From Siphonodentalium dalli (taxonomy: Eukaryota > Mollusca > Scaphopoda > Gadilida > Siphonodentaliidae): DNA of 64,000 nt. The position numbers and the translations under genes are program-made. Shown here in pieces: positions 3,968 to 47,271 of this stretch. A model generated the notes under the pieces. It saw nothing but the letters and a program-made list of their open reading frames with translations, was not told the DNA's origin and ran no database searches. The DNA lies in assembly GCA_032622095.1 (NCBI GenBank), contig CP136061.1, forward strand, positions 124,001 to 188,000, in the 5' to 3' direction. How positions within the stretch are numbered: position 1 is the stretch's first letter; every line of letters begins with the position of its first letter.

Positions 3968-4348
3968 TCACTCACCTTTTTTCGTACCTTTTGCAGTATC
4001 ACCGTTTTTCTTTCTCACTGCTTTAGAATCTTTGTGATTGCGATCTTTCACCTCTTTTATTGCCGTGGATGACTTAGAAGCAATAAAGTTTTTCTTCTTC
4101 ATTTTTATAGAAACTTTATGACTTTCATGCACAACATCACTAGGGTCTGAATGTTCAGAATCACTATCCTTTGAAATATAAACTTTCTCTTTTGTGCCGT
4201 CTAACTTTCTCTTCTTTCCAACACTTAGTAATGAAGATTCTTTTGTGTCTCTTTCCACTTTCACATTGCATGCAAAAGGAGTCACTGCTATACATGTTAT
4301 CCTCAGTTTGGTATCCTGTTTTGCCACTAGTTTTGACTGATACTTGTC
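3968..4348 (-). CDS. PAK1IP1: PAK1IP1 exon 9 (last coding exon, basic C-terminal tail)
   Basis: The acceptor TTTGACAG precedes GACAAGTATCAG, and the exon starts in phase 0 after the phase-0 donor of exon 8. It encodes residues 279-404. A last beta-strand-like segment (LRITCIAVTPF) is followed by a tail rich in Lys, Ser and Asp, with clusters such as KKRKLDG and KMKKKN, as expected for a nucleolar protein. The frame ends KKGE-stop at 3968-3970. The bases just before the stop, AAAAG/GTGAGT (GT at 3974-3975), form an excellent 5' splice site, and no canonical poly(A) signal follows within about 1 kb. An additional 3' exon therefore cannot be excluded; the stop-ended form is preferred because it already gives family-typical length. 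Confidence 0.85.
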   Translation of the reverse strand, partial: DKYQSKLVAKQDTKLRITCIAVTPFACNVKVERDTKESSLLSVGKKRKLDGTKEKVYISKDSDSEHSDPSDVVHESHKVSIKMKKKNFIASKSSTAIKEVKDRNHKDSKAVRKKNGDTAKGTKKGE

Positions 4349-7300: not shown

Positions 7301-10300
7301 AAGAAATTTATTCCATGGGAGACTGTAGACCCAATGTTGATTGAAATGAAATCTTGGTCTAGTTTCAACGAGACTGCCAAATGAGATGACTGTTTTAACA
7401 AAATGTTTTATAAGAGCTATTAAAATAAATATATTAAATTTATAACATCATCTTACCACATCTTTCTGGATTTTGTAGACTAATAATTGTCCACTACTGG
7501 AGCCAGTGAAGAGAAGAGGAACAGAATCATCATGTGCCATGTGATGCAGTGTCAATGCTTTAATTCTGCAGGAGAAACAAAACCCAATTGTTATTACATA
7601 CATTTCTCTATAGTATTTTTCTAAATTACTAATGTATTTAATCCTTTCATGACTGAGCTGCCTGGTACAGCTTTACAGATCCTGTACCAGTACATTCTCT
7701 TATATATGTGAGTCTCCCATAGGGAGCCTCACATATACAAGAGAATGCACTGGCTTACAAGGTCAGGCAGATATTGTTAGGTCAATGTATTCTCTTATAT
7801 ATGCGAGGTTCTCTTTGGGAGACTCGCATATATAAGAGAATGCATTGGCACAGGGTTTTTGCTAAATTTCAGGAAGCTACAGTCATGGAAGGGTTAAATA
7901 GGATAATTACATTAGGACTGAAGTGAAAGTAGAGTGTGTAGAAATTTTGTCATTTTGTCATTGACAAAGACTCCCCGAAGTCACTATAAAGTTCCAATCA
8001 ATTAACAAAATTTTCAACTCAAAATGAACAACCAGGTTGATATTTTTTCACCGAGATATTAATCTTGGTTTCCTTATATAATTACACAATATAAAGCCAT
8101 CATAACAATTTACAAGTTTGTGATTCGGTATGATGCTTTGAAACTGTTATTACATTCAGAAACCAGATTATTCCTCAATTATTCACCTAACTATGATCCT
8201 TGATATCTCAGTTTAAAGAGAAATTGATTATAGTAGACACTGTCAAACCAAAATCTAAGCCATGGAGACCAGAATCCAAAATAAACTTTAACTGTATTTG
8301 CTGGGGTTGTAGCCTGCACACCAAACTTTATTCAATTCCGGTCACATCAACTAAAGTTATCCCTGGGAAAACAAAACAAATTCCAACAACGAGCCACAAC
8401 TCTGGTAGAACCAAAATTGAGCTTGACCTGTATTTTGTAGTATTGAACCACAGCTGTTAAGTTTCACGGATTGTCTGTGAGACTCCCGGATAGCCACAAC
8501 AATTCCCCAAATACCGATAACCCCCCAATTCTTTAACAGACTTATTGTGTAGGTTTGGGGCCGATTAGATCGGCCCCTGGCACTCAAAGGGTTAAGCATA
8601 TAAAAATGTTGTAATCATCAGCAGTTAAGATAAAAATTGTATCTCTTCATAGCTGTGTCCACCAGTGTCTGGAATCAACACAGACACATATTGAATTTCA
8701 CTTCAGAATGATATACCTGTTAGTTTCTGTATCTACAGTGAGTTTGTGTTCATCATTCACTATATTGTGTAGCTCAATATTGCCACCATCTCCACCGTAT
8801 GCAATTGTTTCATCCTGTTAAAGAAAGAACAAAAATAAAGTCTGATGGTCTATCTATATAAAAGCCAAGTGTGTGTGTGTGTGTGTCTGTCTGTAACTCT
8901 CACACAATTTTCACGCGTCTAAAAATACATCACCCTCATGTCCGATTGCACCCAAATTTGACCATGTCATGTGGCACATCATAGAATATGACATGCAAAA
9001 TTTCAGGTGAATCAGTATAAGATGACCAGAGATATAACTTGATTCCCGAGCGTTATCAAGGCAATATTTTCACCGATATAATGCGCTTGTCCGATGATGA
9101 ATGTGGTTCCAGTGGCGTCCACTATTAGTTAACCCTTTACCCAACAAACCGGCCAAAACCGGCCAAATAAAGCTTCAACAGCCTAAAATATCTTGGGTCT
9201 GTCTCAATAAAACCATACAAATATGGATATCATTGGAACCGGCTCATTGACCACACTGTGATGGTTATAGTTATGCCCTGTGCCAATGCATTCTCTTATA
9301 TATGCGAGTCGACCATAGGTCGCCTCGCATATATAAGAGAATGCATTGGCCTAAAAAAAATCTTTTTTTTAACACTTTTTACCATTTTTTCTTACATTCT
9401 TTAACAATTTTATAATTTTTAATGTGTTAAGCCAATGCATTCTCTTATATATGCGAGGCGACCTATGGTCGACTCGCATATATAAGAGAATGCATTGGCA
9501 CAGTGCCCTTCTGTTGGGTAAAGGGTTAACACCAAAGCCAAATTACAGACAAACTCCAGGCACCGTTTGCAGGCTTTCTTTATATCGTTATCAGCAGTGA
9601 AAATATTTTCCTGTTTGTCACCCTGTCATATTTGTGGGCAATCTCCTAGAATGTGATATTATAGTTCTTGTGAGGTGTAAAGAATTGTAAGATGATCACT
9701 GAGACAATTGATTTTCGTACAGTAGCCAACCTTATGTTGGGTCTAGGGCTCTTCTGAAACATACGGCAGCTTCCTCAGTTTCAACTTATATATTGTTTGA
9801 TTATCACAATTGGGTATCCTGACTATCCTCATGTGCACATACAGTTGCGTTTATGTAATCACGTGATTTAACTTGGCATTTATTACACGATCCTACCATT
9901 ATTCCATTCAATAAACCCATTCTATAAATTGTGATACTAAACGTTCGTTTAATAACAGGAAATAGTGCCAGGTGACCTTTGACATCCGGTTTACCGTCTT
10001 TTAACATTCCGTACGCTACGTCTCAAAAATACTATGACTTCCACTATTTCTCCAACAAACTATCATGACTGAAGAATTTGAAAAGTTATGTTATTAAATA
10101 TACGCCATTAAAAGCGCCAAATAGTCTTTATTTATCTGGGACTATTTCTTTACGCGGGCAAACAACGAATAGTTACGTGAAACGTCATCGCATGTCTTAT
10201 AGAAGCCGATGTTAGTTTCTCGTTCCATTTGTTGATTTAAGTATGTTTTGTCGATGTTTTGGATCATGTAATAAATAGAATCTACAACTCGTTCCCAGTT

Positions 10301-13300: not shown

Positions 13301-16300
13301 TATGTGGGTAACAATACTCTGAAGTTTCAAAAATCTACGATCAAAACTGTAGGAGGAGTTGATTACACCATGAAGGTACCCTCATACAGAAAATTATAAA
13401 AAACAAAATTCAAAGTCGAAAGGCCCATAACTCTGGGAAAAATCATTTGATCAAACTCAAATTCGAGCTTGACCTGTATTTTGATATGAACGACCCACAA
13501 AAAACAGAATTTCCAATTAAACAATCCAAACTTGAGTTATCATCCGGAAACCAAAGAAAAAACAAGTAAAATGGAATTTTCTAAGTCGAAAAGCCCATAA
13601 CTCTGAGAAAAATCATCGGATCAAACTCAAATTCGAACTTGACCTGTATTTTGATATCATCCGGAAACCAAAGAAAAAGAGGAAACATTTAATTTTCTAA
13701 GTCGAAAAACGTCCATAACTCAAGGACAATTCATCGGATCAAACTCAAATTCGAACTCAACCTGTATCTTGATATGACTGATCCACATATTTGCAATTAA
13801 TGATTCCAAACTTGAGATATCATCCGGAAACCGAAAAAGTGAGAAATTTTCTAAGTAAAAAAAAAGTTGAAAAAAGGGATTTCAGAGCACCTGTGTTCTT
13901 GGTTGAGACACCTACATACCAAGTTTCAATCAAATCAGATGATCATTACTGGAGTTATAACTCCGGACGGACGGACGGACGGGACACACGGAGCTGATTA
14001 CAATAGTCCCCCGAAAATAATTTTTTCAGGGGACAATCAATGGCTCCCGTTTAGAGGTCAACCCAGAGATCCGTACGCAGTTTGATAATGATCGGATGAT
14101 GGATGTGGCCTGTAGAGTGTGCCAAAAGATTTAGTCACGCAAAGAGTAAAATCCAAGATGGCTGCTGGCGGCCATGTTTTTAACGAATTTCAGAAATAAT
14201 CGATGGCTCCCATCTAGAGGTCACCCCGAAAATCCATATGAAGATTGGGGGCGATTAGATGAGGAATGTGGTCTGTAGGATGTGCCAAAGGATTTAGTCA
14301 TGCATTCAAGATGGCTGCCAGCGGCCATGTTTTTCATCGAAAATCGCTAAAAGTTTACAACTCCCGCTTAGAGGTGATCCTAAACATGCCTGCAAATTTT
14401 CAAAACATTTATCCAATAAAAGTGGGCTGCAGGGTGTGCCAATGGATTCAAATTTGAAATCCGAAATGACAGCTGGTGGCAATATTTTTTAACGAATTTC
14501 GGAAAAAAATTGATGGCTCCCATCTAGGGGGTCACCCCGAAGATCCATATGAAGTTTACTAGTAGTGATGATCAGATGAAGGATGCGGCCTGTAGGGTGA
14601 GCCAAAGGAAAATGTTGATGGATACCAACCCACAGCAATAGCTCAAACTTTACAAGGTAAGGTTGAGCTAAAAGGGATATCTCACTTCATGACACGTAAT
14701 GCCGATAAAAAGCAAATTTCATGCAGTTTCATTCAATTTGTTTTTCTTCAAGAGTGTGGGTATAGCTAGTAATGAAAACTTATCACTCACATCAATGAAG
14801 ACAGCTGAATGAACTCTCTGTTGGCTTTTTATTGAGTGAAGTACACTGGCTGTCTGAAACAAAAATGTTTGTCATTAACCCTTTACCCAACAAACCGGCC
14901 AAATAAAGCTTCAACAGCCTAAAATATCTTCGGTCTGTCTCAATAGAACCATACAAATATGAATATCATTGGAACCGGCTCCTTGACCACATTGTGATAG
15001 TTACAGTTATGCCCTATGGTCGACTCGCATATATAAGAGAATGCATTGGCCTAAAAAAAAATCTTTTTTTAACACTTTTTACCATTTTTTCTTACATTCT
15101 TTAACAATTTTATAATTTTTAATGTGCTAAGCCAATGCATTCTCTTATATATGCGAGGCGACCTATGGTCGACTCGCATATATAAGAGAATGCATTGGCA
15201 CAGGGCCCTTCTGTTGGGTAAAGGGTTAAGTGATGTGCAGCCCTGTTAATTACCATTGACTAAGCCGAGTCAAATGCCTAGTCAAAAAGAAATATCATTG
15301 GGTATATTGTATCCGAAGAAAATTTCAGAACATGCCAACTGAACCTGCCGATGTTTTGTGCAAAATTGAAAAAATTGCTGGAGACATTGACTTATAATGT
15401 CAAACTGTGGAAGTCTTCAGACGTGCAAAAAAAATTTGTTGAATGCCAAGCACAATTGAGGATTATCTTGATAATCAGCAATTTTAAACCATACTGAAAT
15501 AATGTCTGCCATGATGATGGACCAAATTCCAATTGTAAACTGAAGTTATATGTGTAGAGCATGCAACTATGCAGATCCTAGGCATTTTAGCATGCCCTAG
15601 GAACATGTTCTGGCCTAGGGACTTTGCTGGAGACTTCAGGTACTTAACCCTTTCAGTGCCAAGTCCGATTTTTGTATCAACCCATAATTCCTTGATCATT
15701 TTTCAAGGAAATATGGGTTGATACAGAGCTCTTTCCATCAATGTATCACATTATTATAATCAATAAATTTGAAAAATTATCAAGGAAATATGGGTTGATA
15801 CAAAAATCAGACTTGGCACTGAAAGGGTTAAAGCGTGAATATTCTTGCCCAACATACTATGTTCAGATAGGCAAAATACATCAACATTCTTATCGGTATG
15901 TGTAATCTGTAGGACAGGTTATTGGAAAATCCGTTCCAAATGTTCATTATTGATTAATTCAGCCTACATATTTATATTTTTACCTATTTGGTGTTTTCTG
16001 ATATAACACAACCAATGCACAGCCCTCTTAATTCAGATTGTTTGGCTTCGGTAATCCGCTACGGCAACCCTTTGCCGTGGCTCAGTTTGCTTCAGCAAAT
16101 GACATTGCAGATTGCCATAGCCAATTATGAAGGTTGAATGCAGTTTGAGTATTCGACAATAGCAGTTGAATTTTACATTCTTCAAGCGGGCATACTGTCT
16201 CAGAATTGAACTATCACCTTGAAATTCACAAAATGAAATCAAAAGCATACACTGTACCTTTAATAATTAACTTACTAGTAATGAACAGTGCCTGGTTGTA

Positions 16301-19300
16301 TTAACAGTGAATTGCATATACTTGGAGGAAGTATTTCAACAGAAATGAGGCCAACTATTCCAGGTAAAAATTGGATTAAGTTTCTGCATTTTAGAATGGG
16401 TTATAAATGAAACAGTTTCAAGTCATAAGGCTGACCTAGCTGATTTCCTGGTGTAAATTGATGAAGATACAGTATGAGTATTCAATATCATTCAACTATA
16501 TAAACATGGTCAAGAGAGATATTTCTGATGAAGAAGTAGTTCTGAGTCATACAGGAATTAACTTACCTCGACATCATATGCATCAATCTTCATGTTATTT
16601 ATGATGAAGTAGTTCCGAGTCATACATGAATTAACTTACCTCGACATCATATGCATCAATCTTCATGTTATTTATGATGAAGTAGTTCCGAGTCATACAT
16701 GAATTAACTTACCTCGACATCATATGCATCAATCTTCATGTTATTTATGATGAAGTAGTTCCGAGTCATACAGGAATTAACTTACCTCGACATCATATGA
16801 ATCAATCTTCATGTTATTTATGATGAAGTAGTTCCGAGTCATACATGAATTAACTTACCTCGACATCATATGCATCAATCTTCATGTTATTTATGATGAA
16901 GTAGTTCCGAGTCATACATGAATTAACTTACCTCGACATCATATGCATCAATCTTCATGTTATTTATGATGAAGTAGTTCCGAGTCATACCGGAATTAAC
17001 TTACCTCGACATCATATACATCAATCTTCATGTTATTTATGATGATGTAGTTCCGAGTCATACATGAATTAACTTACCTCGACATCATATGCATCAATCT
17101 TCATGTTATTTATGATGATGTAGTTCCGAGTCATACATGAATTAACTTACCTCGACATCATATGCATCAATCTTCATGTTATTTATAATGATGTAGTTCC
17201 GAGTCATACATGAATTAACTTACCTCGACATCATATGCATCAATCTTCATGTTATTTATGACGATGTAGTTCCGAGTCATACATGAATTAACTTACCTCG
17301 ACATCATATACATCAATCTTCATGTTATTTATGATGATGTAGTTCCGAGTCATACATGAATTAACTTACCTCGACATCATATGCATCAATCTTCATGTTA
17401 TTTATGATGATGTAGTTCCGAGTCATACATGAATTAACTTACCTCAACATCATATACATCAATCTTCATGTTATTTATGATGATGTAGTTCCGAGTCATA
17501 CATGAATTAATTTACCTCGACATCATATACATCAATCTTCATGTTATTTATGATGATGTAGTTCCGAGTCATACATGAATTAACTTACCTCGACATCATA
17601 TGCATCAATCTTCATGTTATTTATAATGATGTAGTTCCGAGTCATACATGAATTAACTTACCTCGACATCATATACATCAATCTTCATGTTATTTATGAT
17701 GATGTAGTTCCGAGTCATACATGAATTAATTTACCTCGACATCATATACATCAATCTTCATGTTATTTATGATGATGTAGTTCCGAGTCATACATGAATT
17801 AACTTACCTCGACATCATATACATCAATCTTCATGTTATTTATGATGATGTAGTTCCGAGTCATACATGAATTAACTTACCTCGACATCATATACATCAA
17901 TCTTCATGTTATTTATGATGATGTAGTTCCGAGTCATACATGAATTAACTTACCTCGACATCATATACATCAATCTTCATGTTATCTATGATGATGTAGT
18001 TCCGAGTCATACATGAATTAACTTACCTCGACATCATATGCATCAATCTTCATGTTATTTATGATGATGTAGTTCCGAGACATACATGAATTAACTTACC
18101 TCGACATCATATGCATCAATCTTCATGTTATTTATAATGATGTAGTTCCGAGTCATACATGAATTAACTTACCTCGACATCATATACATCAATCTTCATG
18201 TTATTTATGATGATGTAGTTCCGAGTCATACACGAATTAACTTACCTCGACATCATATGCATCAATCTTCATGTTATTTATGATGATGTAGTTCCGAGTC
18301 ATACATGAATTAACTTACCTCGACATCATATGCATCAATCTTCATGTTATTTATGATGAAGTAGTTCCGAGTCATACAGGAATTAACTTACCTCGACATC
18401 ATATGCATCAATCTTCATGTTATTTATGATGAAGTAGTTCCGAGTCATACAGGAATTAACTTACCTCGACATCATATGCATCAATCTTCATGTTATTTAT
18501 GATGAAGTAGTTCCGAGTCATACATGAATTAACTTACCTCGACATCATATGCATCAATCTTCATGTTATTTATGATGAAGTAGTTCCGAGTCATACATGA
18601 ATTAACTTACCTCGACATCATATACATCAATCTTCATGTTATTTATGATGATGTAGTTCCGAGTCATACATGAATTAACTTACCTCGACATCATATGCAT
18701 CAATCTTCATGTTATTTATGATGATGTAGTTCCGAGACATACATGAATTAACTTACCTCGACATCATATGCATCAATCTTCATGTTATTTATGATGATGT
18801 AGTTCCGAGTCATACATGAATTAACTTACCTCGACATCATATACATCAATCTTCATGTTATTTATGATGATGTAGTTCCGAGTCATACATGAATTAACTT
18901 ACCTCGACATCATATACATCAATCTTCATGTTATTTATGATGATGTAGTTCCGAGACATACATGAATTAACTTACCTCGACATCATATGCATCAATCTTC
19001 ATGTTATTTATGATGATGTAGTTCCGAGTCATACATGAATTAACTTACCTCGACATCATATACATCAATCTTCATGTTATTTATGATGATGTAGTTCCGA
19101 GTCGTACATGAATTAACTTACCTCGACATCATATACATCAATCTTCATGTTATTTATGATGATGTAGTTCCGAGTCATACATGAATTAACTTACCTCGAC
19201 ATCATATGCATCAATCTTCATGTTATTTATGATGATGTAGTTCCGAGTCATACATGAATTAACTTACCTCGACATCATATGCATCAATCTTCATGTTATT

Positions 19301-22300
19301 ATTTATGATGAAGTAGTTCCGAGTCATACATGAATTAACTTACCTCGACATCATATACATCAATCTTCATGTTATTTATGATGATGTAGTTCCGAGTCAT
19401 ACATGAATTAACTTACCTCGACATCATATACATCAATCTTCATGTTATTTATGATGATGTAGTTCCGAGTCATACATGAATTAACTTACCTCGACATCAT
19501 ATACATCAATCTTCATGTTATTTATGATGATGTAGTTCCGAGTCATACATGAATTAACTTACCTCGACATCATATACATCAATCTTCATGTTATTTATGA
19601 TGATGTAGTTCCGAGTCATACATGAATTAACTTACCTCGACATCATATGCATCAATCTTCATGTTATTATTTATGATGAAGTAGTTCCGAGTCATACATG
19701 AATTAACTTACCTTGACATCATATACATCAATCTTCATGTTATTTATGATGATGTAGTTCCGAGTCATACAGGAATTAACTTACCTCGACATCATATGCA
19801 TCAATCTTCATGTTATTTATGATGATGTAGTTCCGAGTCATACATGAATTAACTTACCTCGACATCATATTAGAGGTGCCACGATTATTGATTTTGATAA
19901 TCGATAATCGGTCGTCAATAATCGACTATAATCGATTAATCGTACCTAATATTAATAACATCAGTGGAAGTATACCGTAATATGGCCTATTGCCTGGGTG
20001 CTCGTTAATTCAATAACTGCACTGTCGCTGGTCATTTGAGACATTGGCTGATGTAATTTTTACGTTAATAAAGTGCATCATAAACCACTGTTAATGACTA
20101 ATGAGCACAATGTATTGAATACCAGCACAGTTCTCAGTGATGTTATATGGTTATAATATTTGTGAGTTCATTAGAACGAACGTAGCGATTAATTTAAGTT
20201 TTAGGAATAGCCAAATACATAAACAAACGATACAAAAGTAGGATTGAACAATGGACCGCCGGTTGTTCCTACGGTACATAAAGGAATCAAATGTTATGGA
20301 AACAATAAGTTTCATCAAACTTCCAGAGCGTGGTTGACAATCACAAACGTGTGCCCCACCTGCAAATTGCATGACTCAGAACAATTTTAAGTATTTGATA
20401 AGTCTGTTTCATTCAGCATTCACCACACGATATGCAATAGCCTTTACTAGTAACTTCTAAGTATACATTTCTACTTATAATATCCAAACAAAGTTCACTT
20501 GCAATGCAATTGGGGAGAACATCACTGATTAAAATGCCATATATACATGTACATGTATATTGTTCCCTGGTTTTAGAGAGAATGTCAATCAACTTCCCAT
20601 TGGTCCAATCAGATTCAAGGGCGAGTGCATTCAGTTCATTGAACACGGTGACAGTCGGCACATTTCAAAGACATATTGCCACCTTTCAAGTATATTAAAA
20701 TATACAACGATGTCACAATGTGTTCAAATCTGCAGTGCGGCCAATTTGTAGAATATGCAACGACCCGACGAGAAACCATGTCGCATCGTCAAATGAATTG
20801 CCAACTGTTTGCAACATATATCAGTAGTACTCATGTTATTGGAATCTCTTTGGTACGCGATCAAAGGATGTTAACACCTCGGTTGTAGATAGAACTGTGT
20901 AAAATAAACACGGTATTCAATAATACCCGGCATCTTCTGACATCCGATATAAATAACACAGATTAATCGACGATGGAAATGGTAATCGATTATCGGCTTT
21001 ATCAACGGTTCATCGATTATACGATTAATCGTGGCACCCCTACATCATATGCATCAATCTTCATGTTATTTATGATGATGTAGTTCCGAGACATACATGA
21101 ATTAACTTACCTCGACATCATATGCATCAATCTTCATGTTATTTATGATGATGTAGTTCCGAGTCATACATGAATTAACTTACCTCGACATCATATACAT
21201 CAATCTTCATGTTATTTATGATGATGTAGTTCCGAGACATACATGAATTAACTTACCTCGACATCATATACATCAATCTTCATGTTATTTATGATGATGT
21301 AGTTCCGAGACATACATGAATTAACTTACCTCGACATCATATACATCAATCTTCATGTTATTTATGATGATGTAGTTCCGAGACATACATGAATTAACTT
21401 ACCTCGACATCATATACAGCAATCTTCATGTTATTTATGATGATGTAGTTCCGAGACATACATGAATTAACTTACCTCGACATCATATACATCAATCTTC
21501 ATGTTATTTATGATGATGTAGTTCCGAGTCATACATGAATTAACTTACCTCGACATCATATACATCAATCTTCATGTTATTTATGATGATGTAGTTCCGA
21601 GACATACATGAATTAACTTACCTCGACATCATATACATCAATCTTCATGTTATTTATGATGATGTAGTTCCGAGACATACATGAATTAACTTACCTCGAC
21701 ATCATATACATCAATCTTCATGTTATTTATGATGATGTAGTTCCGAGACATACATGAATTAACTTACCTCGACATCATATACATCAATCTTCATGTTATT
21801 TATGATGATGTAGTTCCGAGACATACAGGAATTAACTTACCTCGACATCATATACATCAATCTTCATGTTATTTATGATGATGTAGTTCCGAGACATACA
21901 TGAATTAACTTACCTCGACATCATATGCATCAATCTTCATGTTATTTATGATGATGTAGTTCCGAGACATACATGAATTAACTTACCTCGACATCATATA
22001 CATCAATCTTCATGTTATTTATGATGATGTAGTTCCGAGACATACATGAATTAACTTACCTCGACATCATATACATCAATCTTCATGTTATTTATGATGA
22101 TGTAGTTCCGAGACATACATGAATTAACTTACCTCGACATCATATACATCAATCTTCATGTTATTTATGATGATGTAGTTCCGAGTCATACATGAATTAA
22201 CTTACCTCGACATCATATACATCAATCTTCATGTTATTTATGATGATGTAGTTCCGAGTCATACAGGAATTAACTTACCTCGACATCATATACATCAATC

Positions 22301-25300
22301 TTCATGTTATTTATGATGATGTAGTTCCGAGTCATACATGAATTAACTTACCTCGACATCATATACATCAATCTTCATGTTATTTATGATGATGTAGTTC
22401 CGAGTCATACATGAATTAACTTACCTCGACATCATATGCATCAATCTTCATGTTATTTATGATGATGTAGTTCCGAGTCGTACATGAATTAACTTACCTC
22501 GACATCATATGCATCAATCTTCATGTTATTTATGATGATGTAGTTCCGAGTCATACATGAATTAACTTACCTCGACATCATATACATCAATCTTCATGTT
22601 ATTTATGATGATGTAGTTCCGAGTCATACATGAATTAACTTACCTCGACATCATATACATCAATCTTCATGTTATTTATGATGATGTAGTTCCGAGTCAT
22701 ACATGAATTAACTTACCTCGACATCATATACATCAATCTTCATGTTATTTATGATGATGTAGTTCCGAGTCATACATGAATTAACTTACCTCGACATCAT
22801 ATGCATCAATCTTCATGTTATTTATGATGATGTAGTTCCGAGTCATACATGAATTAACTTACCTCGACATCATATGCATCAATCTTCATGTTATTTATGA
22901 TGATGTAGTTCCGAGTCATACATGAATTAACTTACCTCGACATCATATACATCAATCTTCATGTTATTTATGATGATGTAGTTCCGAGTCATACAGGAAT
23001 TAACTTACCTCGACATCATATACATCAATCTTCATGTTATTTATAATGATGTAGTTCCGAGTCATACATGAATTAACTTACCTCGACATCATATACATCA
23101 ATCTTCATGTTATTTATGATGATGTAGTTCCGAGTCATACATGAATTAACTTACCTCGACATCATATGCATCAATCTTCATGTTATTTATGATGATGTAG
23201 TTCCGAGTCATACATGAATTAACTTACCTCGACATCATATACATCAATCTTCATGTTATTTATGATGATGTAGTTCCGAGTCATACATGAATTAACTTAC
23301 CTCGACATCATATGCATCAATCTTCATGTTATTTATGATGATGTAGTTCCGAGTCATACATGAATTAACTTACCTCGACATCATATGCATCAATCTTCAT
23401 GTTATTTATGATGATGTAGTTCCGAGTCATACATGAATTAACTTACCTCGACATCATATGCATCAATCTTCATGTTATTTATGATGATGTAGTTCCGAGT
23501 CATACATGAATTAACTTACCTCGACATCATATACATCAATCTTCATGTTATTTATGATGATGTAGTTCCGAGTCATACATGAATTAACTTACCTCGACAT
23601 CATATACATCAATCTTCATGTTATTTATGATGATGTAGTTCCGAGTCATACATGAATTAACTTACCTCGACATCATATACATCAATCTTCATGTTATTTA
23701 TGATGATGTAGTTCCGAGTCATACATGAATTAACTTACCTCGACATCATATACATCAATCTTCATGTTATTTATGAAGATGTAGTTCCGAGTCATACATG
23801 AATTAACTTACCTCGACATCATATACATCAATCTTCATGTTATTTATGATGATGTAGTTCCGAGTCATACATGAATTAACTTACCTCGACATCATATACA
23901 TCAATCTTCATGTTATTTATGATGATGTAGTTCCGAGTCATACATGAATTAACTTACCTCGACATCATATACATCAATCTTCATGTTATTTATGATGATG
24001 TAGTTCCGAGTCATACATGAATTAACTTACCTCGACATCATATACATCAATCTTCATGTTATTTATGAAGATGTAGTTCCGAGTCATACATGAATTAACT
24101 TACCTTGACATCATATACATCAATCTTCATGTTATTTATGATGATGTAGTTCCGAGTCATACATGAATTAACTTACCTCGACATCATATACATCAATCTT
24201 CATGTTATTTATGATGATGTAGTTCTGAGTCATACATGAATTAACTTACCTCGACATCATATGCATCAATCTTCATGTTATTTATGATGATGTAGTTCCG
24301 AGTCATACATGAATTAACTTACCTCGACATCATATGCATCAATCTTCATGTTATTTATGATGATGTAGTGATTCCCAGATGGCGACCACAGAATTATCTC
24401 TGCATCTGTAAGATAACACAGACATACATGATACTGACTGTTCTTAATGTTGGTTTACATCGATGATCTGTTCCATAACTCTACTATAGCAGAGTTTACA
24501 CCCAGATTCATCATTGAATTGGTTTTATCCTAAACATGAACACAGAAAGCTATATTTATTGGAAAGAGTGATATCTTGCAGTCACAATGACTGATTTACA
24601 TTTTATGATAAAATACATATATATTTAGTCCAAGTTACCGTTGATGTAAGCCAACTATTGAAACATGTAGTGATAATACTGGTTGATGTCAAGTATGGTT
24701 GCCTTACTCTTCTCTCATCAGACTTCAGGAGTAAGGTACCGCTCATCTAAAATCACCAAAATGACGGTAATAACATGTCACAATTGAGAAAATAACCCAG
24801 TTTATCCATAGACAAGACAGTCAATGACTGTGGGGTCGCTCACCAGACTGCAAAGACTGATAAGACTGGGACTCTGGAGACCACAACAGTCAGAACGTTT
24901 CATAATCACTTTAAAAGAAGTAGAACTAAACAGGATATGTGGCTAGAGAGACTTCACATATGTAGATTGGTGAAAATCCACCTTGAAATTACCAACTGTA
25001 CACTACTGATCACCCACCTCCTCCAGATCAACAAGACCCCTCCCGACTGGGCTCCAGACTCCCAAGTCTTGGGTTGGAATTTCACAACCGACACCTCAAA
25101 CTTTCTCAATTGTTGGAAATTTCCAATCTCACAAGCGCCTTTTTATAATATCATTTAGACATGTTTGAAGCCCAATTATCCATGGACCCAAAACACCATA
25201 CATGTATGTCAGATTAATCAGTCAGGTGGTTCCAAGGTAGATGTTTTAATGAATTTGGTATTTCAATGATTTTATTAGACACAAAAGTGTTAACTCCTCA

Positions 25301-28300
25301 TAACCCCACCATTTCTTGACAGGTTGACCACATTTTAACAAATCTGAATCTGTCACTAAAGGATCCTCCATACTATATGTAAGCTAAATAGTCCAACCCC
25401 TCTTGAGAAGACATTTTAAGAATAACTATAGAGACATATAGTTATGTCCCTGGTCCCACCCTATTTAACCTGGTGACCCCATCTGAATATATTTGAATCC
25501 CAGACACCAAAGAACCCTTCATACTAATACTAAATATCAGTAAAATAGACCTGATGGTCCTTGTGAAGGAAGCATATTAAGATGGAAACTGTCCTTCGCT
25601 TGGCCCCTATTTGACCAGGTGACTCCATTTAAAAAAATCTAAATTGCAGTCAAACAAGAACATTCCATGCTAAATAAGCCAACTAGTTCTTGCAAACATA
25701 TTTTAAGAATTACTATGTGGTGAAATAGTTATGTCTCTGGCTCTGCCCTTATTTGACTTTGTGATCCCATTTTCACAAATCTGTCACCCACGGTAATTTC
25801 ATACCAAATATAAGCAAAATAGGCCATTTGATTCTTGCATAGAAGACATATCATGAATTACTATGGAGAGAAAGAGTAATGTAGCTGGCCTTGCACCTAC
25901 TTGACCAGGTGACCCTAATTAAACAAATCTGAATCACAATCACCAAAGAAGCCTCAATATTAAATATGAGCTAAATAGAGCTGGTGGTTCTTTCAAAGAA
26001 CACTTTTGCCAAATATGTTCTAGTGAAGTGGAAGTGGGTGTGTTAAATGTCCTGTTGAAAGATTTGAACAATACATGATAGATTGTTGTTGTAATTGGGA
26101 ATTAATGACTTCTAGCAGATCTCCAGGGAATGTTTATAAAAATGTCAGATTTCACTTGACATGTGTAGGCATATCCCGCATACAGTTAGAGCCAAAGTAA
26201 ATGTTTCTTATTAATGATTCACTGTCAAGAATTTGAGTAAATTTTATTTTTGGGACCAGGGTGGTAGAAGCAGTAAACTTTTTTTTGGAGTTATGTCCCT
26301 GGCCACGCCCACATTTGACCCAGTGACCTCATTTGAACAAATCTGAACCCCAGTCACCCAAGAATCCTTCATACCAAATATGAACCTATTTGGCCTGCTG
26401 GTATTTGAGAAGATGTTTAAAAGAATTACTATGGAGGGAAAGAGTTATGGCCCAGGCTTCGCAACTATTTGACCCAGTGACCTCATTTGAACAATTCTGA
26501 AGTGAGTCACCTAGGGAACATCCACACCAAATATGAACCCATTTGGCCTGCTGGTATTTGAGAAGAAGATGTTTAAAAGAATTACTATGGAGGGAAAGAG
26601 TTATGGCCCTGGCTTCGCAACTATTTGACCAAGTAACCTCATTTGAACAAATCTGAATGTGAGTCACCTAGGGAACATCCACACCAAATCTGAACCCATT
26701 TGGTCTTATGGTTCCAGAGGAGATGTTCAAAGAATTGTTGACGGACGGACGTATGGACGGCTCGACGGATGGACGGACGAGGAGTGATGACTATAGTTCC
26801 ACCGGAGACTTTGTCTCAGGTGAGCTAAAAACAAATATCTGTTCTGGATTCCACAAGATTTTCCAACTGTGAAAGTAGTAAATTATAATGCGAATAGGTC
26901 GGTAGACCTCATGTCCGCCTCTAAGTGTCGGCTTGATACGACCGTTGTTTGCGCATAAAAACCTGTCTTTAGTGCTAGTAAACATACATACCAAACTTAT
27001 TTCATTCAGTACACATTTACTAAAGTTATCATCCGGAAACCTCAAATTGGCAAAAATTCTAAGTAAAAAAGGGACATAACTCTGGTGAAAATTGGCGGGC
27101 AGAACCCGAATTCGAACTTGACCTGTGTTTTGCTGGGAGAAAGACACATACCAACTTTGGTTCAGATCAAATAATCCAAACTGGAGTTATCGGTCGGAAA
27201 CCAAAAATGTTAACAGACGGTCAAATTATAAGTTGAAAAAGGGCCGTAACTCATGTAAAAATAATTGGACGGAACCCATATTCGAACTTGTCCTGTATCT
27301 TTAGCTGGGAAACACACATACCAACTTTGGTTCAGATCAAATAATCCAAACTGGAGTTATTGGTCGGAAACCAAAAATGTTAACAGACGGTCAAATTCTA
27401 AGTCGAAAAGGGGGCATAACTCTGGTGAAAATTGGCGGACGGAACCAGAATTCTAACTTGACCTGTCTTTTCTGCTAGTAAACCCACATACCAATTTAAT
27501 TTAATTTGGTTCACTCTAACTAAAGTTATCATCCGGAAACCTCGGACGCACGGACGGACGGACGCACAGGCTGATTATAATAGTCGTCCGAACCCGTTGT
27601 GTCGGCGGACAAAAATATATTTTATCACAATGTTTACATAATTTCAAAAGAAAACAAACTCATTTAACATCGCAACTTTGTAACAGTTCGGGTCATCTCC
27701 GAGCGTAAAGAAACCCAGATCAAACAGAAGTTATTCCTAATTACATGGCATATTCTGTGCGTAATTGAACATGAATGTTAGATTATAATACATCATTATG
27801 ACCGTAAGATATTACTCTTTCCGATAAACATAGCATTTTGTATTGATTTCAATGATAAAGTTGATTAAAATTGATGAAAAATCACAAACTGGATCTGGGC
27901 TTAAAACCATTTCAGTGCCAAGTCCGATTTTTGTATCAACCCATATTTTCTTGATCATTTTTCAAATTTATTTTAGAGCTCTTTCCATCAAAGTATCACA
28001 TTATTATAATCAATAAATTTGAAAAATGATCAAGGAAATATGGGTTGATACAAAAATCGGACTTGGCACTGAAAGGGTTAAAAAGTCTACTATAGAAGAG
28101 TAAGGCAACCATACTTTGTCCTATACCAGTATCATGCCTAACGATTTCACCGGAAGGTTTATGTCAATGGAAACTTGGATTATTGCTCATTCAGACACGC
28201 AAATTAGTTTGTGGTACAAAAAAAAACAGTTTGTGGTACAAACCTGCTTTAAGATTTGTGACGTACGCTGATCGACCTGTCACTAAATTCCATGTGTGGA

Positions 28301-31300
28301 GTTTTCGATCTGTACCAACTGACATGGCTAACTTCCCACTTGGATGAACTGCCACACAACGAACAGCATTTCTGAAAATAGTTTCCAAAAAGGAAGAATA
28401 AAATTGGTTGACCATTTAATTTAATTTAGTTAATGACACTTGACCGGAAAACAATCTGGTCAAAAACTTGAATAAAATTTCTACAAAAATTAAATCTTGA
28501 TTTTTAGACCGACCCTGCAGTATCACAAAAACTGAACATATTGTAAGAATAACTGTCTAAATAACACATAAGCAAGAACAAATTATATAGATAATTTAAA
28601 ACACAGATGGGTTTGAAGGAAACGGCTGTTTTTTTGTTCTTAGAAGAAAAAGACTATTTGTTTGTGTTATCAGACTTTTCTACATTGAAATTCTTGAAAT
28701 AACATCACAGAACAACTAGGATACATTTCTGCAGCTTTTTATTGACTTTATCCAAGGATTTTTATGTGGGAAAATTTTTCATGCAGACAACATTCTCACT
28801 CTCCGCTGTTCGGTGTCATGAACAGAAATAATTAAGATTCTTGGGAACAAGAACATGCATTTTCTTTAAACTCGCGACACGTAAAGGGTTGTTGCATTGG
28901 AATAACATCTGGATAGAGTTAATTTTGTTGTTATCTAGCGCGGATCTGTGTCTTTGACTGCAGCAGTTCGAGGCCTTGATGAGTAATCAATAATCAGGAG
29001 ATAAATCCAAATCGGAGATGTGTGATGATCTAATTTTAAGGCATCTCATGAAGATACTCAATGCATGTGCTCGCACAAGGATCCAACTTTATAAGTCGAA
29101 CTGTCAAAATTGTGTTAAATAAAATGTAATCAACAGTATATAGTTCTCAAACGAGCCTATGGAAAGATTGTTTCCGCAAATTTTTTTCTAAATTCGACAT
29201 CGACTGTATTTTGAATCAGCATAGCTATACATGGGGGACCATATGGACAACCACTATTTGATTATGACCCGATAGAAATATTAGACATTCTTTGGGATCA
29301 AGCTCTTGGATCAAGTTTGAAAGGCTGATGACTACCCTAGATTGCTGGAACTTGCTGTTCAATAACTAAGGAATCTCAATTTCTCAACACAATGTTTGCA
29401 GTTCTCAATGATTGTCCCAGAATTCTACGTCGAAGTGTCAAAACTATATTTTTAAATCACATGTAACCAATATATTAAAATTTATATAGGTATCATAGTA
29501 TCGTACGTCTGTATCAAACGAGCTGTCGAACCTATATGGAAAGACTATTTCTGTAAATTTGTAATTAATTCAACATCAACTGTGTTTCAAATTCTACAAA
29601 GGACATTCGGCTTCATGACTGACAATTCACATTAGTATTAATGTGTCAAATTTGTGTGTCCTGCCAACTATATTACTTATTCTTCAACCTGTGAGAGCAG
29701 GGTGCTCCAAAGACAAAGGAATTTATATACAACAACAACGATGGCCATGTTTTTTAACAAAATATGAACAAATTTAATTGCTCCCATCTAGTGGTCACCC
29801 AGAAGTATTTAGTGACAATCAGATGAGGGATATGACCTGTGGGGTAGTCTCACCTGACGAATAATAGTGCATGCATGATTATTTAATTTCAGTCATAAAT
29901 ACAACCCTGCACTATTATTAGGCAGTGAGACATATAGTGAAATTGCCTGCACTATTATTAATTTCAGCCTCAAATACATGTACAGCCATGTACTATTATT
30001 CGGTCTGCACTATTATTCGGCAGGTGAGAGTATGGAGAAGGATTTAGACATGCAAAGACGCCAAAGAGTAAAATCCAGGATGGCTGCCAGCGGCCATGTT
30101 TTTCATAAAAACATTCAAATTTAATCGCTTGAATTTCAACAAATTTTGGAAAAAATTTATGGCTCCCATCTAGAGCGAATATCTGTATGAAGTTTGGTGA
30201 CAATCCGATGAGAGATGTGACCTGTAGGGTGTGCTTAATGGAATATTTGAAGGACAGCCAACCTATGGCAATAGCTCAAAATTTACTTTGTCAAAGTGAG
30301 CTAAAAACAGGGCCCTGATTTTTCTTCAGCATGGAACAATAAAGAACATTCCTTGTTAGTCTATCCAATTTAAACTAGAGGTGCCACGATTATAGATTTT
30401 GACAATCGATAATCGGGAGTCAATAATCGACTATAATCAATTAATCGTACCTAATACTATCAGTGGAAGTATTCTGTAATATGGCCTATTGGCTGGGTGC
30501 TGGTTAACTGCACTGTCGCTGGTTGTTTGAGGCATCGGCTGATGTCTTTTTTACGTTAATAAAGTGATTCATAAACCACTGTCAATGACCAATGAACACA
30601 ATGTATTCAATACCAGCACAATTCTCGGCGATGTTAAGGTTATAATATTTGTGAGTAAATTAGAACGAACGTAGCTATTAATTTCAGTGTTATGAATAGC
30701 CAAACATACAAACAATATAAAAGTAGGAATGCACGAAGGATGGCCGACGGTTCCTAAAAACTATTAAGTTTCGTCAAGCTTCGAGAGCGTGGATAACAAT
30801 CACAAATGTGTGCCCCCACCTGCAAATTGCAGGACTCCCGTGGCACCCCTAATTTAAAATGCTGGAAAATTTCTATGACTGTGGATTAATATTTCATGTA
30901 TTTTACCCTTTCATAATGGGAGCTGCGCTGGCACAACATTCAAGACCCTGTGCCAATGCATTCTCTTATATATGCGAGTCGACCATAGGTCACCTCGCAT
31001 ATATAAGAGAATGCATTGGCTTACAAATTTTTTATCATTTTTTATCAATTTTTCTTACATTCCTTAACAATTTTTTATCATTTTTTCTTTCATTCTTTAA
31101 CAATTTTTATCATGTTTTATAATTTTTTGTTACATTCTGTAACTAATTTTATCATTTTTCTTATATTCTTTAACAATTCTATCATTTTTTATATCATTTT
31201 TTCTCACATTCTTTAACAATTTTATCATAATTTTTTCTTACATTCTTTAAAGATATATTATGGACTTTTTGAAACTGATAAGTTAGCTTTGAGGTGCTAT

Positions 31301-34300
31301 GTCAACTGGAGGAATGTAGCATTTTAGTAACATTGCCGAAAATTTCAAGCAAATTGACCGTACCACTCCATAGAAATCATCGTCTGAACAACCCTCAATT
31401 GTAAATATTTATTTCTCAATTCGGGATGCAACTCTCTGCGATAAACTAATGAAAACGATTTCACCTTCGAGAATCACTGCAATTAATTAATAAATAAGAA
31501 TGACGATGTGTGTTGCCAATTTGTATATAATATTTGTAAAAATAACTAAATTTGAGCAAGAGTATTCTCCATTTCTATTTTATCACCATACTTTAGTGTT
31601 TCACATCACTTTAACAATTTTTATCATTATTTCTTACATTCTTTAACAATTTCTTTCATTTTTTCTTACATTTTTAACAGTTATAAAAAATAATATAAAA
31701 ATTGTAAGGCCAATGCATTCTTCTATATATGCGAGGCTACCTATGGTCGACTCGCATATATAAGAGAATGCACTGGCACAGGATTTTCACAAAATTTCAG
31801 GAAGCTCCCATCACGAAAGGGTTAATATCGACTTAATTTATCGGTTCTTCCAAAATTACGTAAACATAACTTGAAGGTTCAAATGATAAATTCAAGTAAT
31901 ACAAACTTGTGTCCTTTGAATGATCTCAGGCATTCCCATTTATTGGATTTCCAAATGCACACAGTTCCGTCATCACTACAGCTGAACATATGAGATCCTT
32001 CATAGAATGCGAGCCAGTTAACTGTGCCTGTAACATTACAATTCAATTCAAAATTTATTGCCAATATCTGGATTAAAACCAGGAATGTGACATAAATGTG
32101 GACACACCACAACATAAGTGAACAGGTTTAGAAATAACAATGTATCAGAAACAAAGAACATAAAAAAAAGAAACTTATTAAATGCTAATATAGACGGTCT
32201 AGAAATTTTTAGTTTCTTATTTCAAACATCAAATGGTCCATATGGGGTATATTAGATAATAAATGGTGATAAATTATATGTTTTTATTGCTACATGTGTA
32301 GGCAAGGAAATTAGGAAGAAAACAGGTAGTCCAAATCAATCAATCAACTCAATTAATTTTATTTTTGAACAAAGCAAAACCATTCGGCTCTTAGTTCCCA
32401 TATTACATAATGGAAATTGACATTTTAAACATCACAATCAGTACTTTTTTGTATAGTTCACAAGTCAATGTAAAGTCCATTTATTGCTCCACTATTTCCA
32501 TATTATGTATTATTTTGTTAGATATTTTTCTCTTTGTTTTCTTAGTTCTATCCTAAGTTTTTTCGAGTCATTAAGTTCTTTTCTTGAGCATTCACTGTTG
32601 AAATAAACTTAGTTATGTCCATCGATTTTAGTTTCTCCACTGTTAAACTGAGTTGCCTTTTTTATCATTATATCCTGTAACATAGTTCAGTGAGCTAAAT
32701 GAATTGACACCCCCCCTAATTAATTCAATAGTTTTTTCTCACTGTGCTAACACATCATTGATAATAAAAAATACAGCTACTTTTTCCCTTCTGTTCAGTT
32801 TCTTTATCCCCTTATTTGTAGAATATAAAATGCATAATTGAGGTGACTAATGGGTGAACTTCAACTGGGGAACTTCAACCTGATCCTTGGTCTGCCATAG
32901 CAGTTGAGGCTGCAGCAGAATGAAGTTCCCAGAGGATGATATTGGTGACGCTAGCCCCCAGTGTGGGCTAATGTTACTAAATTCACACTCTGGAGACCTC
33001 ATTCTGCAAATGACAGACACACTATATGCAGTCTTGATTACTATTAATGCATATCAAGTTCATTATAAGAATTAAAGCACTTCTCTGGGGGTATACATAC
33101 CTGTATAACAAATAAACCTGCTCAATAAAGTTGTTTCAATAAATTTAGTATCAAAATAGGCACCCTACATTTTGTCATCCTTTTATATAAATTACATGTA
33201 TTGAATAACGTAGTCCAAGTCTTCTTGTACTAAAACCAGCTAAGATATTGGTATGGCGATTTGCTGGTGTTTAGTCCAAGCCCGCCTGCATAGGCTTCTT
33301 ATAACACGACTTTAGCGTTAGTGACCCGCTCAAATAAAACCACAATTATATGAAATAAAATATCACAATTGCAACAATAAACGGATATTTTCCGCAGAAG
33401 ACTTGCTATTTGATCTGAAACCCACATCAGTTGTGATTTGAACGCGGTAATTTAATGTGAAAAGAGACATTTAACGCAATGTTTACATAATTTTAAAAGT
33501 ATGCGAACTCAGTTGAAAATATTCCGTAGATTTTCGATCAACCACGCACGATGAATTCTCCATTGTAATCGTAATTGTACGTGTCAATAAATAAATAAAT
33601 GCATAGATTAAGTAAATATTGAAGATATAAATGTAATACATTAAATTAATTGCGGGAATTACAACCATCTCACAGTTTAAAACAGTGTAAACACAACGAG
33701 CATTAGAATAATATGGGGGCCGCCATTTTGTTTGTATAGCCAGACCAAACTCCAGACTGTGCCGGAGTTCTTCCGTACGACTTCGGCTTTCGGTTAAAAC
33801 GTAAACAAAATATACAGCGATGTCACAAAATGCGATGTCGGTGACAATCAACCGGAATATTCTATGCGTAATTTAACATGAAAGTTAGATTATTATACAC
33901 CATTATGACCATAAGATGTCACTCTTTCCGATGTATATAGCATCATGTATTGATTTTTTAGGTAAATCAAGTAAAATACACCACAAATTCCCGCCACAGA
34001 TCCTGGGCGCAAGTCGTGTTATAAGAAGCCTATGCAGGCGGGCTTGGACTAAACACCAGCAAATCGCCATACCAATATCTTAGCTGGTTTTAGTACAAGA
34101 CTTGGACTATGAATAACGTTGGCGGATCATTCCCATTTATCAGTGATTAATTCAAGACGAATGAAGGATTTTAAAGATATGGGTGGCGTTGGTGGTGGGT
34201 ATGCTGTTAAAATATTCACCTCCTTCAAAAACCGCCATAAACAGAAAGAATAGTAAAATATAGACAAATCTTGTTCTTATACCAATCAGAAATATGGCAT

Positions 34301-37300
34301 AAACAGTATGTTATTGTCAAATGTTCTTCCTTTGTTATGTAAACAAAAGCAAAAAATCATTACAGAACCTGGCTTTTGTTTAGATCCGGATATGGTAAAC
34401 ATAAAGAGCGTAGATTGTTACTGTTTTCCTGATATGGAAATAATAAAGCGCGTTTATATCATTTGTGTGTGATTAACCAGTAGAATATTGCGCTGTGTTA
34501 TGTAAACAGAAGCAAAACGTCTGTAACACAAGCAGGCTCTTGTTTACGTACACCATCGTACGTCTTGACAACAATATACTATTTACGAACTGATTATGTT
34601 TGGCATATGAACAAAACTATATATATTTTAATATTCCTTCTGTTGATGGCGATTTGAACAAATATGAATATTTCTGCAACAAACGCCGCCCGTGACTTTA
34701 AATAGTAACATATCTGCGTATTTCATATGTCATTTTTAATAAAAGGGTACATTATATGTTAAAGTATTAGCAATATTAGTTGAATCTTCAAACTTGTGTC
34801 ATGGCAGAAAAGTAAACTATTACTATTAGTAATGAAATAACTTTACGTACTCACTCTCTACTGGTGGTATGTGTGTTGGCAAAACAGAATAAATGACCAC
34901 TTGCACACAAGTCTCCCAAAAGTTGGCATTTTTTTTAGGACAATGGCATTATTTTGAATTATTAAATTCCATTATTCATTTGAAAACAAAAATAGTTAAG
35001 ATGCTTCCTCAAAATATGTTCAGACTGGAGACAATATACATGTACTTACCTCAGAGTAAAGCAAATTTGATAATGTGTGATGGACACACAAACAAGTCAT
35101 AGTCCCGTGAAAATGAATTTTTCGGGGGACAGCAAGCAAATAACTTTACACTACACACTCACTTACCGGTATGTGTGGCATAACAGACCTCTTGCATACA
35201 AGTCTCCCAAAAGGTGTTTTTTTTAAAAGGGGTGCTGTACAATAAATCCGGCCATTTATGGGACCATCTCCTATTATACTCAACAGAAAATATCTGATAA
35301 AAGAATTATCATGAGTCAAGAATGAGACTTAAATAAACTCACGTACACAAAGAAACACGTACAAGTATAACAACCTGATAATTATAACGAAAATTAATAA
35401 ATGGCTTTTAACTCATTTTTATTATAATTACTATATTGTTTACATTATTCATAGAGTACATGAGTGTATTTTGCACTCATCCATGACTCAAATTCATTCA
35501 TTTGTTCCATATATTCTGTTGAGTATTAATAGGAAATGGTCCCATAAATGGATGGAATTAGTGTACAGTACCGGCTACCCCATTAAGGATAATAGTATTA
35601 TTGAGAAATATTGAATTCCATTATCCCATTTTGTAAACAAAAATAGTTAAGATGCTTCCTTAAAATACTTTCAGACTTGTTGAGACCATATACTTACCTC
35701 AGAGTAAAGCACATCTGATACTATTAAGTCTTAAGTAATACATGTAATGAAAATTTAATTTCCCTTGAGGGAATAAATTCAAGTGAAATTTTCTGATCGT
35801 ACACAAGTGGGGTACAGCTCCCTTAGTTAAGTTAGTTTGAACTCAAACATGTTCTTTTAGTCATTCTGTTTTAATATGTACCTTGTAAGCCCCAATAAGA
35901 AGTAATTTTAGAGTGATATTCAGTGTTGGAAGAGTATAAAAGGGAAATAGTATGTGGGCAACTTCCGTACCTGAATGCTGCATCAAACATCCAAGTTCTT
36001 GCCTCTTGTCAAGATGGAAAAGACGAATGGTTTCGTCTGTACCACCTGATGCCAGTATGTTTTTACTTGATATGGCAACAGATTTAATTGAACCCAAGTG
36101 GGACTGGTCAGTGAAGCTTGGGTCCAGGCGCCGATTCTGAAATAATTGAGAAAACAAGGCCATAATTAAAAGATTGTTTGTTTCCCCTCGTGGCCTCGAA
36201 TACAACCAAACACAGCTCAAATAATGGGAAATATAACAAATAAAGTTCATAGGCATATTACTAAACAAAGTTAGGTGGATTTTGGGCCTCAATAATGAGT
36301 GTTTTATTAGATGTTTTGTACAACACGTTTGAGTACGGCATCGAAAAGCCAAACACAAACTTCTGCCATGGATTACTCTATATCTGCTTATTGGTGATAA
36401 TTAAAGGTACTCAATCCGTAAAGAGGGTCCCCATCTCAATAGATTCCAACAACAACAATCCGATCAGAGGGTCTTATATTACTATTTCTTTGGCTTTGGG
36501 GGTAAAAAATATTTGATTCGAGTCGAATCAAACAAAGCTCAGAGTTATTAGATATTGATTTTTGAAATTTGTTATTAACTCGAGATGAGTACTATTAACT
36601 GCCGTAATCTGCTCTGGATGTGTACTCCAAATCTATTCAAACAGACAAGGATGGATAACTCTAAAATCAAGTGGTAATTTTAACGCAATTTTGACTGAGT
36701 TCTGGGCCAGATACATGTAGTATTCCCGATAATGAAAAATAATATATTTCTAAAATCGATATCTAACAAATCTGAGCTTTGATGGGTGACTTCCTCGACT
36801 CGAATCAAATATTTTTGACCCCCGAAGCCATTGAAATAGTAATTGAGAGGAGTTTTATCGGATTGAGTACCTTTAACATCTGCAATATTATATTGACGGC
36901 AGGGAGTTGAAGAAAAAACATATTTCCATAAGCATATCAGCATCTCTGTCCCTGGTGTCCCAGGAATTGGTGTCTCACGCCCAGAGCTCTAGTATATTTT
37001 ATTAAAGGGATATCTCCTGCACAGATATATACCATTTCTATGGCCATAAAAAGGGAATTAGGGGTTACCGGGGGGCTTGCTTCCTTCATATTGTGTACTT
37101 ATTGACTTGAAATAGGGGAAAAAACCCTATTTTCATATTATCAGCATCCCTGTCCCCAAGAATGTGTGTCCATCACAGAGATCAAGTATATTTTATAAAT
37201 GAGACATATCCTGCACAGATCTATACCATTTCCATGTCATAAAAGGGATCTAGGGTTACTGGGGGATTACTTCCCTCATATGGTGGGCCTACCGGTATAT

Positions 37301-46015: not shown

Positions 46016-46115
46016 NNNNNNNNNNNNNNNNNNNNNNNNNNNNNNNNNNNNNNNNNNNNNNNNNNNNNNNNNNNNNNNNNNNNNNNNNNNNNNNNNNNNN
46101 NNNNNNNNNNNNNNN
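46016..46115. other. Assembly gap (100 N)
   Basis: Exactly 100 N, the conventional placeholder for a gap of unknown length. Sequence on the two sides is not obviously related. Confidence 0.99.

Positions 46116-47204: not shown

Positions 47205-47271
<67 letters not shown>
47205..47271. repeat. (CT)n microsatellite
   Basis: About 33 CT units, flanked by GCATCATGC and CATGC. The glutamate-arginine frames through it on the other strand are artefacts of the dinucleotide. Confidence 0.98.

Follow-up and report, generated by a model that had tools for sequence, protein, structure and literature searches.

How does a gene splice when the 5' splice site of one of its introns is present 91 times in a row, and how does such an array come into being? 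This question is raised by PAK1IP1 of the scaphopod Siphonodentalium dalli, which lies within a stretch of 64,000 nucleotides (contig CP136061.1, positions 124,001 to 188,000 of the forward strand; hereafter the window). On the minus strand, positions 16528-24369 form a 73-bp tandem array, reported by Tandem Repeats Finder (TRF) as two halves, whose unit is made of the 46 exonic nt at the end of exon 5 and the following 27 nt of intron 5 of this gene. In our judgement it is likely that the array is a young minisatellite, that is, a variable number of tandem repeats (VNTR), which arose where exon 5 meets intron 5, that the window copy of the gene is most likely a second haplotype of a locus on scaffold C3, or else a very recent paralogue, and that the repeated donors are passengers.

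The units are tandem, homogeneous and within the size of about 10-100 bp that defines minisatellites, and each holds the end of a coding exon together with its donor, as in a VNTR of an exon-intron junction. In agreement with the first-pass annotation, which had described the locus as a junction turned into a minisatellite, a mismatch-tolerant scan found exactly 91 donors, with their GT from 24322 to 16566, 45 of them to the right and 46 to the left of an inserted hAT-type element. The same annotation had stated that GAG/GTAAGT occurs in every unit; this is the case for 87 of the 91, which carry the exact donor GAGGTAAGT, while two read AAGGTAAGT (AAG/GTAAGT) and two the weakened form GAGGTAAAT (GAG/GTAAAT). 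In line with its description of a near-perfect U1 match, the array donor pairs best with U1 among the gene's eight donors (-10.7 kcal/mol, the next one reaching -8.9). Donors follow each other at 73 bp in 87 of 90 gaps, at 76 bp in two and at 1253 bp in one, the latter being the sum of 73 bp, the 1172-bp element and an 8-bp target duplication. Over 90 of the 91 units (the unit split by the element was left out, and two 76-bp units were aligned minus 3 bases) mean pairwise identity is 97.7%, with 26 distinct sequences. With five of the 91 units left out, 24% of adjacent pairs share the letters of all variable columns, versus 7-18% of pairs that stand 11 to 45 units apart; this greater likeness of neighbours is expected from local duplication. 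A higher-order repeat was considered and rejected, as similarity merely declines with distance and no clear period appears at lags 1-45. A structure sequestering the donors was also rejected, single-strand folds being no better than shuffles (z of -0.52 for DNA and 0.89 for RNA), and no RNA family was found in the window at the gathering threshold.

The host gene is intact when the first donor is used. Its nine exons, with GT-AG introns, join into an intact frame of 404 codons, and the spliced 404-aa product has its best match in Pecten maximus PAK1IP1 (E 2.3e-99) and is 39-50% identical to PAK1IP1-type proteins of named molluscs. The name of the gene is based on these matches and on the alignment of homologues, searches of PDB and Pfam giving generic WD40-type matches only. 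At the exon 5/6 junction no insertion was seen in any of 13 homologues aligned out of 132, one of which is a residue short there; joining donor 1 to exon 6 is thus expected to give a normal protein.

When the own genome (2.23 Gb in 9 contigs) was searched with a 191-bp query around exon 5 and all three candidates were scored, one match emerged besides the array, C3:206598002-206598138, which is 97% identical. This match belongs to a whole PAK1IP1 locus, whose sequence runs collinearly with the window, starting at about 45.4 kb and continuing to position 1 and past it. There, the exon 5/intron 5 junction has a single donor (GT at C3:206598100) and corresponds to the unexpanded sequence predicted from the ends of the array, and intron 5 measures 1,752 nt versus 9,469 nt in the window. 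The coding sequence is intact in both copies and differs at 9 of 1215 positions, three of the changes being synonymous and six not; codons 184, 221 and 268 are among those affected. In this sense, one assembly contains two copies of the gene with 91 and 1 donors, respectively, and the C3 copy offers a view of the junction before the minisatellite arose.

How the array began can be approached from that copy. Around its single donor, the exonic ACTACATCATCAT and the intronic ACTACTTCTTCAT form imperfect 13-nt repeats exactly 73 bp apart; their in-register similarity (shuffle p=0.00065) had been calculated on the two ends of the array before the C3 copy was known. A hybrid form, ACTACTTCATCAT, with T at -42, occurs in 12 of the 90 units, all of them with C at -14, and appears to be what a crossover inside the microhomology would leave, even if a point change could mimic it. 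We infer from these sequences that the array probably arose at the 13-nt imperfect microhomology 73 bp apart. Mispairing or recombination between the two repeats would have generated the first tandem copy, unequal exchange together with local duplication would have led to 91 units, and the hAT-type element would then have entered one of them.

The element is later than the array, because it splits one unit. Its 8-bp target duplication and its imperfect terminal inverted repeats (TIRs) are features by which hAT elements are recognized, and it may be a non-autonomous member of that family. No open reading frame of at least 120 aa was found within 19871-21042, although a search aimed at a transposase was not made. 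At 30376-30837 the window contains an 80% relative of the first 507 bp of the element.

A difference between the two copies touches the repeated part of the exon. At codon 184 (window 24335-24337) the array copy reads GCA (Ala), where the C3 copy has GTA (Val), and the position is occupied by Ile, Val or Leu in 13 of 13 aligned homologues. The Ala form is found in 37 of 90 units, namely the coding unit and 36 others, including all 12 units with the hybrid microhomology. By sequence, Ala184 may have been converted from the array into the coding exon, or the reverse.

The PAK1IP1 array can be seen as an extreme variant of the junction VNTR type known from human CBS, and what is unusual about it is the presence of 91 near-perfect donors versus a single donor in a near-identical copy. 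The CBS array is not known to contain a transposon, nor is the unit of the intronic VNTR of ABCA7 known to hold the donor of its own gene. The first-pass annotation knew of no described locus in which the donor of a conserved gene had been amplified to such an extent. Nevertheless, human CBS c.1444_1467+7(16_21) is described as a 31-bp VNTR across the border between exon 13 and intron 13, with 24 exonic and 7 intronic nt, which repeats its own donor in 16-21 units and varies in copy number among chromosomes (PMC2630376). As in that VNTR, the PAK1IP1 unit spans an exon end and its donor and is repeated in tandem with invariant length and scattered substitutions; in contrast, there are 91 units of 73 bp instead of 16-21 of 31 bp, and a single-donor form occurs in the same assembly, whereas the CBS alleles tabulated in PMC2630376 all have at least 16 units. 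More 31-bp units go along with lower enzyme activity (PMC5188458, citing Lievers 2001). A second likeness is CBS 844_845ins68, a common polymorphism reported as a tandem duplication over an exon-intron junction, of whose two sites one is strongly preferred in splicing (PMC2630376). Intron gain by tandem duplication (PMC4974935) is also similar in that a duplication across an intron-exon boundary doubles the splice signals, but there one duplication made a new intron, while the typical PAK1IP1 unit has no acceptor. Compared with intron gain by tandem AGGT duplication, the duplicated AG of such a unit does not qualify as an acceptor under the rough pyrimidine rule given below, and no new intron is expected for that reason. 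Additionally, the ABCA7 VNTR is intronic and is reported to affect splicing (PMC5954066). In the open-access literature searched, no junction array with as many units and no matched 1-versus-91 pair was described.

Regarding the splicing of the array copy, the reading frame is kept by donor 1 only. Donors 2-91 lead to a stop after codon 190, and since this stop lies at least 64 nt ahead of the next junction, RNAs from these donors are candidates for decay. Exon 5 would have 83, 156 and 229 nt with donors 1-3, and more than 300 nt from there on. As just three of the 91 donors would thus keep exon 5 within 300 nt, exon definition would favour donor 1 or the first few. Some leakage to donors 2-3 would feed nonsense-mediated decay, and the array allele would be functional and mildly hypomorphic, as is reported for human CBS when its junction VNTR is long.

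The first-pass annotation had held that only the first donor belongs to an exon with an acceptor. This is correct for donors 1-45, ahead of which exon 5 has the only convincing one; beyond them, the hAT-type element adds two acceptor-like sites on the minus strand, at 20895 and 20269, which precede donor 46 and could yield a cryptic exon. They were found with a simple pyrimidine rule (10/16 pyrimidines), a rough one, which passes only 6 of the 8 real acceptors of the gene. For the typical unit, tandem acceptors and exons of zero length were discarded, as in the whole span outside the element only three YAG sites lack an upstream AG and their best pyrimidine content is 10/16. Ratchet sites of recursive splicing consist of a polypyrimidine tract and YAG/GTRAGT; here GAG or AAG stands before GT in 91 of 91 donors, with no pyrimidine tract, and no recursive splice sites were recognized in the array.

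It is conceivable, if rather unlikely, that the array haplotype is null or strongly hypomorphic, with later donors or the acceptors of the element capturing exon 5 or making cryptic exons, little normal mRNA being produced and the haplotype surviving via a normal other allele. The stop after codon 190 shared by all alternative donors and the two acceptor-like sites upstream of donor 46 are consistent with such a loss, as is the preference for the intron-proximal site reported, with its reason unknown, when two donors are comparable (PMC6002489), an observation that also speaks against donor 1 as the winner in our preferred reading. On the other side, the exon lengths suggest that exon definition restricts the realistic competitors to donors 1-3, and the array copy has accumulated no damage to its frame.

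Most studies of the choice among equal 5' splice sites have used reporters with two of them. In this assembly a matched pair seems to be at hand, one gene in two copies at about 1.3% divergence with 1 versus 91 near-equal donors, and the nine coding differences distinguish the transcripts of the two copies. Copy-specific RNA would show whether the exon-proximal or the intron-proximal site wins and how fidelity relates to donor number, and also whether junction VNTRs, as that of human CBS, reduce expression through decay.

To judge from the sequences of the two copies, the window copy is quite probably the second haplotype of the C3 locus, misplaced by the scaffolder at the end of scaffold C1, and the array and single-donor forms are probably alleles, or else recent paralogues. 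Homology to C3 covers nearly all of one contig, C1:100708-170015 (69 kb), bounded by 100-N gaps (C1:100608-100707 and 170016-170115). Beyond these gaps, where 60-80 kb of C3 sequence were compared, there are only short repeat-like matches (223 bp at 93.7% under a stricter filter, 373 bp at 83% and 529 bp at 90%). Over 43,499 aligned bases, 557 substitutions separate window and C3 (1.28%), a lower bound, as it comes from 24 chosen blocks of at least 600 bp and more than 94.5% identity with low-identity blocks excluded, and one in which some C3 stretches are counted twice because of an internal duplication of the array contig. Divergence of this size is usual between haplotypes of a mollusc. In the neighbouring contig, a 1-kb query (window 55000-56000; best 40 of 2,054 candidates scored) has a full-length match of about 100% at C3:168765639-168766639, and a further 58-bp match with the same offset follows beyond the query at C3 168.77 Mb. 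By this match to another C3 locus, at least two successive contigs at the scaffold end appear to repeat different places of C3, which would be the pattern of misplaced second haplotypes.

Several observations weaken this interpretation. The neighbour query is largely repeat-family sequence with 80-90% relatives elsewhere, and a query from the outer contig (C1:58001-59000) had no full-length match elsewhere among the best 40 of 5,238 candidates, its partial matches being a widespread repeat over 1-436 and 431-1000 at 100% on C2. Moreover, 609 bp at the end of the array contig are unmatched in the 80 kb of C3 compared, the contig carries its own tandem duplication of about 13.8 kb, and a recent inter-chromosomal duplication is possible. 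A true segmental duplication, in which the C1 end recently gained a copy of PAK1IP1 from C3 and the array grew in a spare, unconstrained copy, is nonetheless unlikely in our opinion. It agrees with the position of both copies within chromosome-scale scaffolds and with their intact coding sequences, as well as with the unmatched 609 bp and the private duplication, but leaves unaccounted that homology runs over nearly one entire gap-bounded contig, with just short repeat-like matches outside, that the piece of the next contig matches C3 38 Mb away, and that the divergence is of ordinary haplotype size.

The private tandem duplication extends from C1:100708 to about 128000, downstream of PAK1IP1, with about 280 nt of filler at the joint; its part in the window covers positions 1 to about 4000. 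The first 593 bp of the array contig are identical to C1:114520-115112, and the main collinear blocks of the duplication are about 95-99% identical. The sequences on either side of the gap at window 46016-46115 belong to different contigs and match different C3 loci.

That the 91-donor form is a working allele in which the spliceosome chooses donor 1 over 90 near-identical donors with high fidelity, copy number tuning PAK1IP1 output and the last 15 codons of exon 5 evolving in concert with the intronic array, seems distinctly doubtful to us.

The first-pass annotation had also suggested that the array might retain U1 small nuclear ribonucleoprotein (snRNP), suppress polyadenylation or act as a U1 sponge, and nothing that we found favours it. 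A selected platform, whose donors are kept to load U1 snRNP, protect the intron from premature polyadenylation, delay splicing or titrate U1, is very improbable, even though a near-consensus donor stands in 87 of 91 units and forms the strongest U1 duplex of the gene. The region protected by U1 has 35 nt, 23 upstream and 12 downstream (PMC6002489), so with a spacing of 73 bp all donors could be bound together. A count of cells gives proportionally fewer minority letters for the donor (4/810) than for the rest of the unit (91/5,760), which is at odds with donors as mere passengers. However, this scarcity is not read as selection because the cells are duplicated copies of few events; four non-donor columns (-42, -14, +13 and +20) hold most of the minority letters outside the donor, and by columns the donor is as often variable as the rest (2/9 vs 13/64, Fisher p=1). 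In U1 telescripting, a platform of U1 sites shields strong polyadenylation signals. The array span has no AATAAA and no ATTAAA that would need suppression, TATAAA occurring 4 times and the weak CATAAA 86 times, and the near-identical C3 copy does with one donor. Taken together, the sequence data point to donors that are passengers or a mild liability, with no evidence for a U1 sponge.

An assembly artefact hiding a much shorter array, as the short array contig among gap-bounded contigs might suggest, is highly improbable, since an assembler is unlikely to invent 26 distinct sequences among 90 units, variant units of 76 bp in two places and an insertion whose target duplication is intact.

Table 1. 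Position of the PAK1IP1 exons, the array and associated features in the window
Feature	Position	Strand	Remarks
PAK1IP1 exon 1	43883..43948	-	ATG
PAK1IP1 exon 2	35971..36136	-	
PAK1IP1 exon 3	31907..32027	-	
PAK1IP1 exon 4	28244..28371	-	
PAK1IP1 coding exon 5	24323..24405	-	83 nt, of which the final 46 belong to the repeat unit
PAK1IP1 exon 6	14791..14853	-	acceptor that must pair with donor 1
PAK1IP1 exon 7	8717..8814	-	
PAK1IP1 exon 8	7457..7565	-	
PAK1IP1 exon 9	3968..4348	-	ends at stop; C-terminal end uncertain, as a donor-like GTGAGT overlaps the stop
Gene-upstream array half	21042..24369	-	45.6 copies, 98% matches (TRF); donors 1-45, GT 24322 to 21110
Gene-downstream array half	16528..19870	-	45.7 copies, 97% matches (TRF); donors 46-91, GT 19857 to 16566
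Exon-side microhomology ACTACATCATCAT	24357..24369	-	start of first unit
Intron-side microhomology ACTACTTCTTCAT	16528..16540	-	follows last unit; in register with the exon-side copy at a distance of 73 bp
hAT-type element, 1,172 bp	19871..21042		splits one unit; flanked on each side by target duplication CATCATAT; TIR imperfect, TAG(A/G)GGTGCCACGATTA
Window part of contig C1:100708-170015	1..46015		aligned blocks along C3:206579255-206625067
100-N scaffold gap	46016..46115		closes the array contig

Beyond the gap, the window contains a weak fragment of an RVT_1 reverse transcriptase at 48986-49372 on the minus strand (E 1.5e-4, under the Pfam cut-off), probably a decayed retroelement. A perfect run of the CT dinucleotide, with 33.5 units by TRF, occupies positions 47205-47271.

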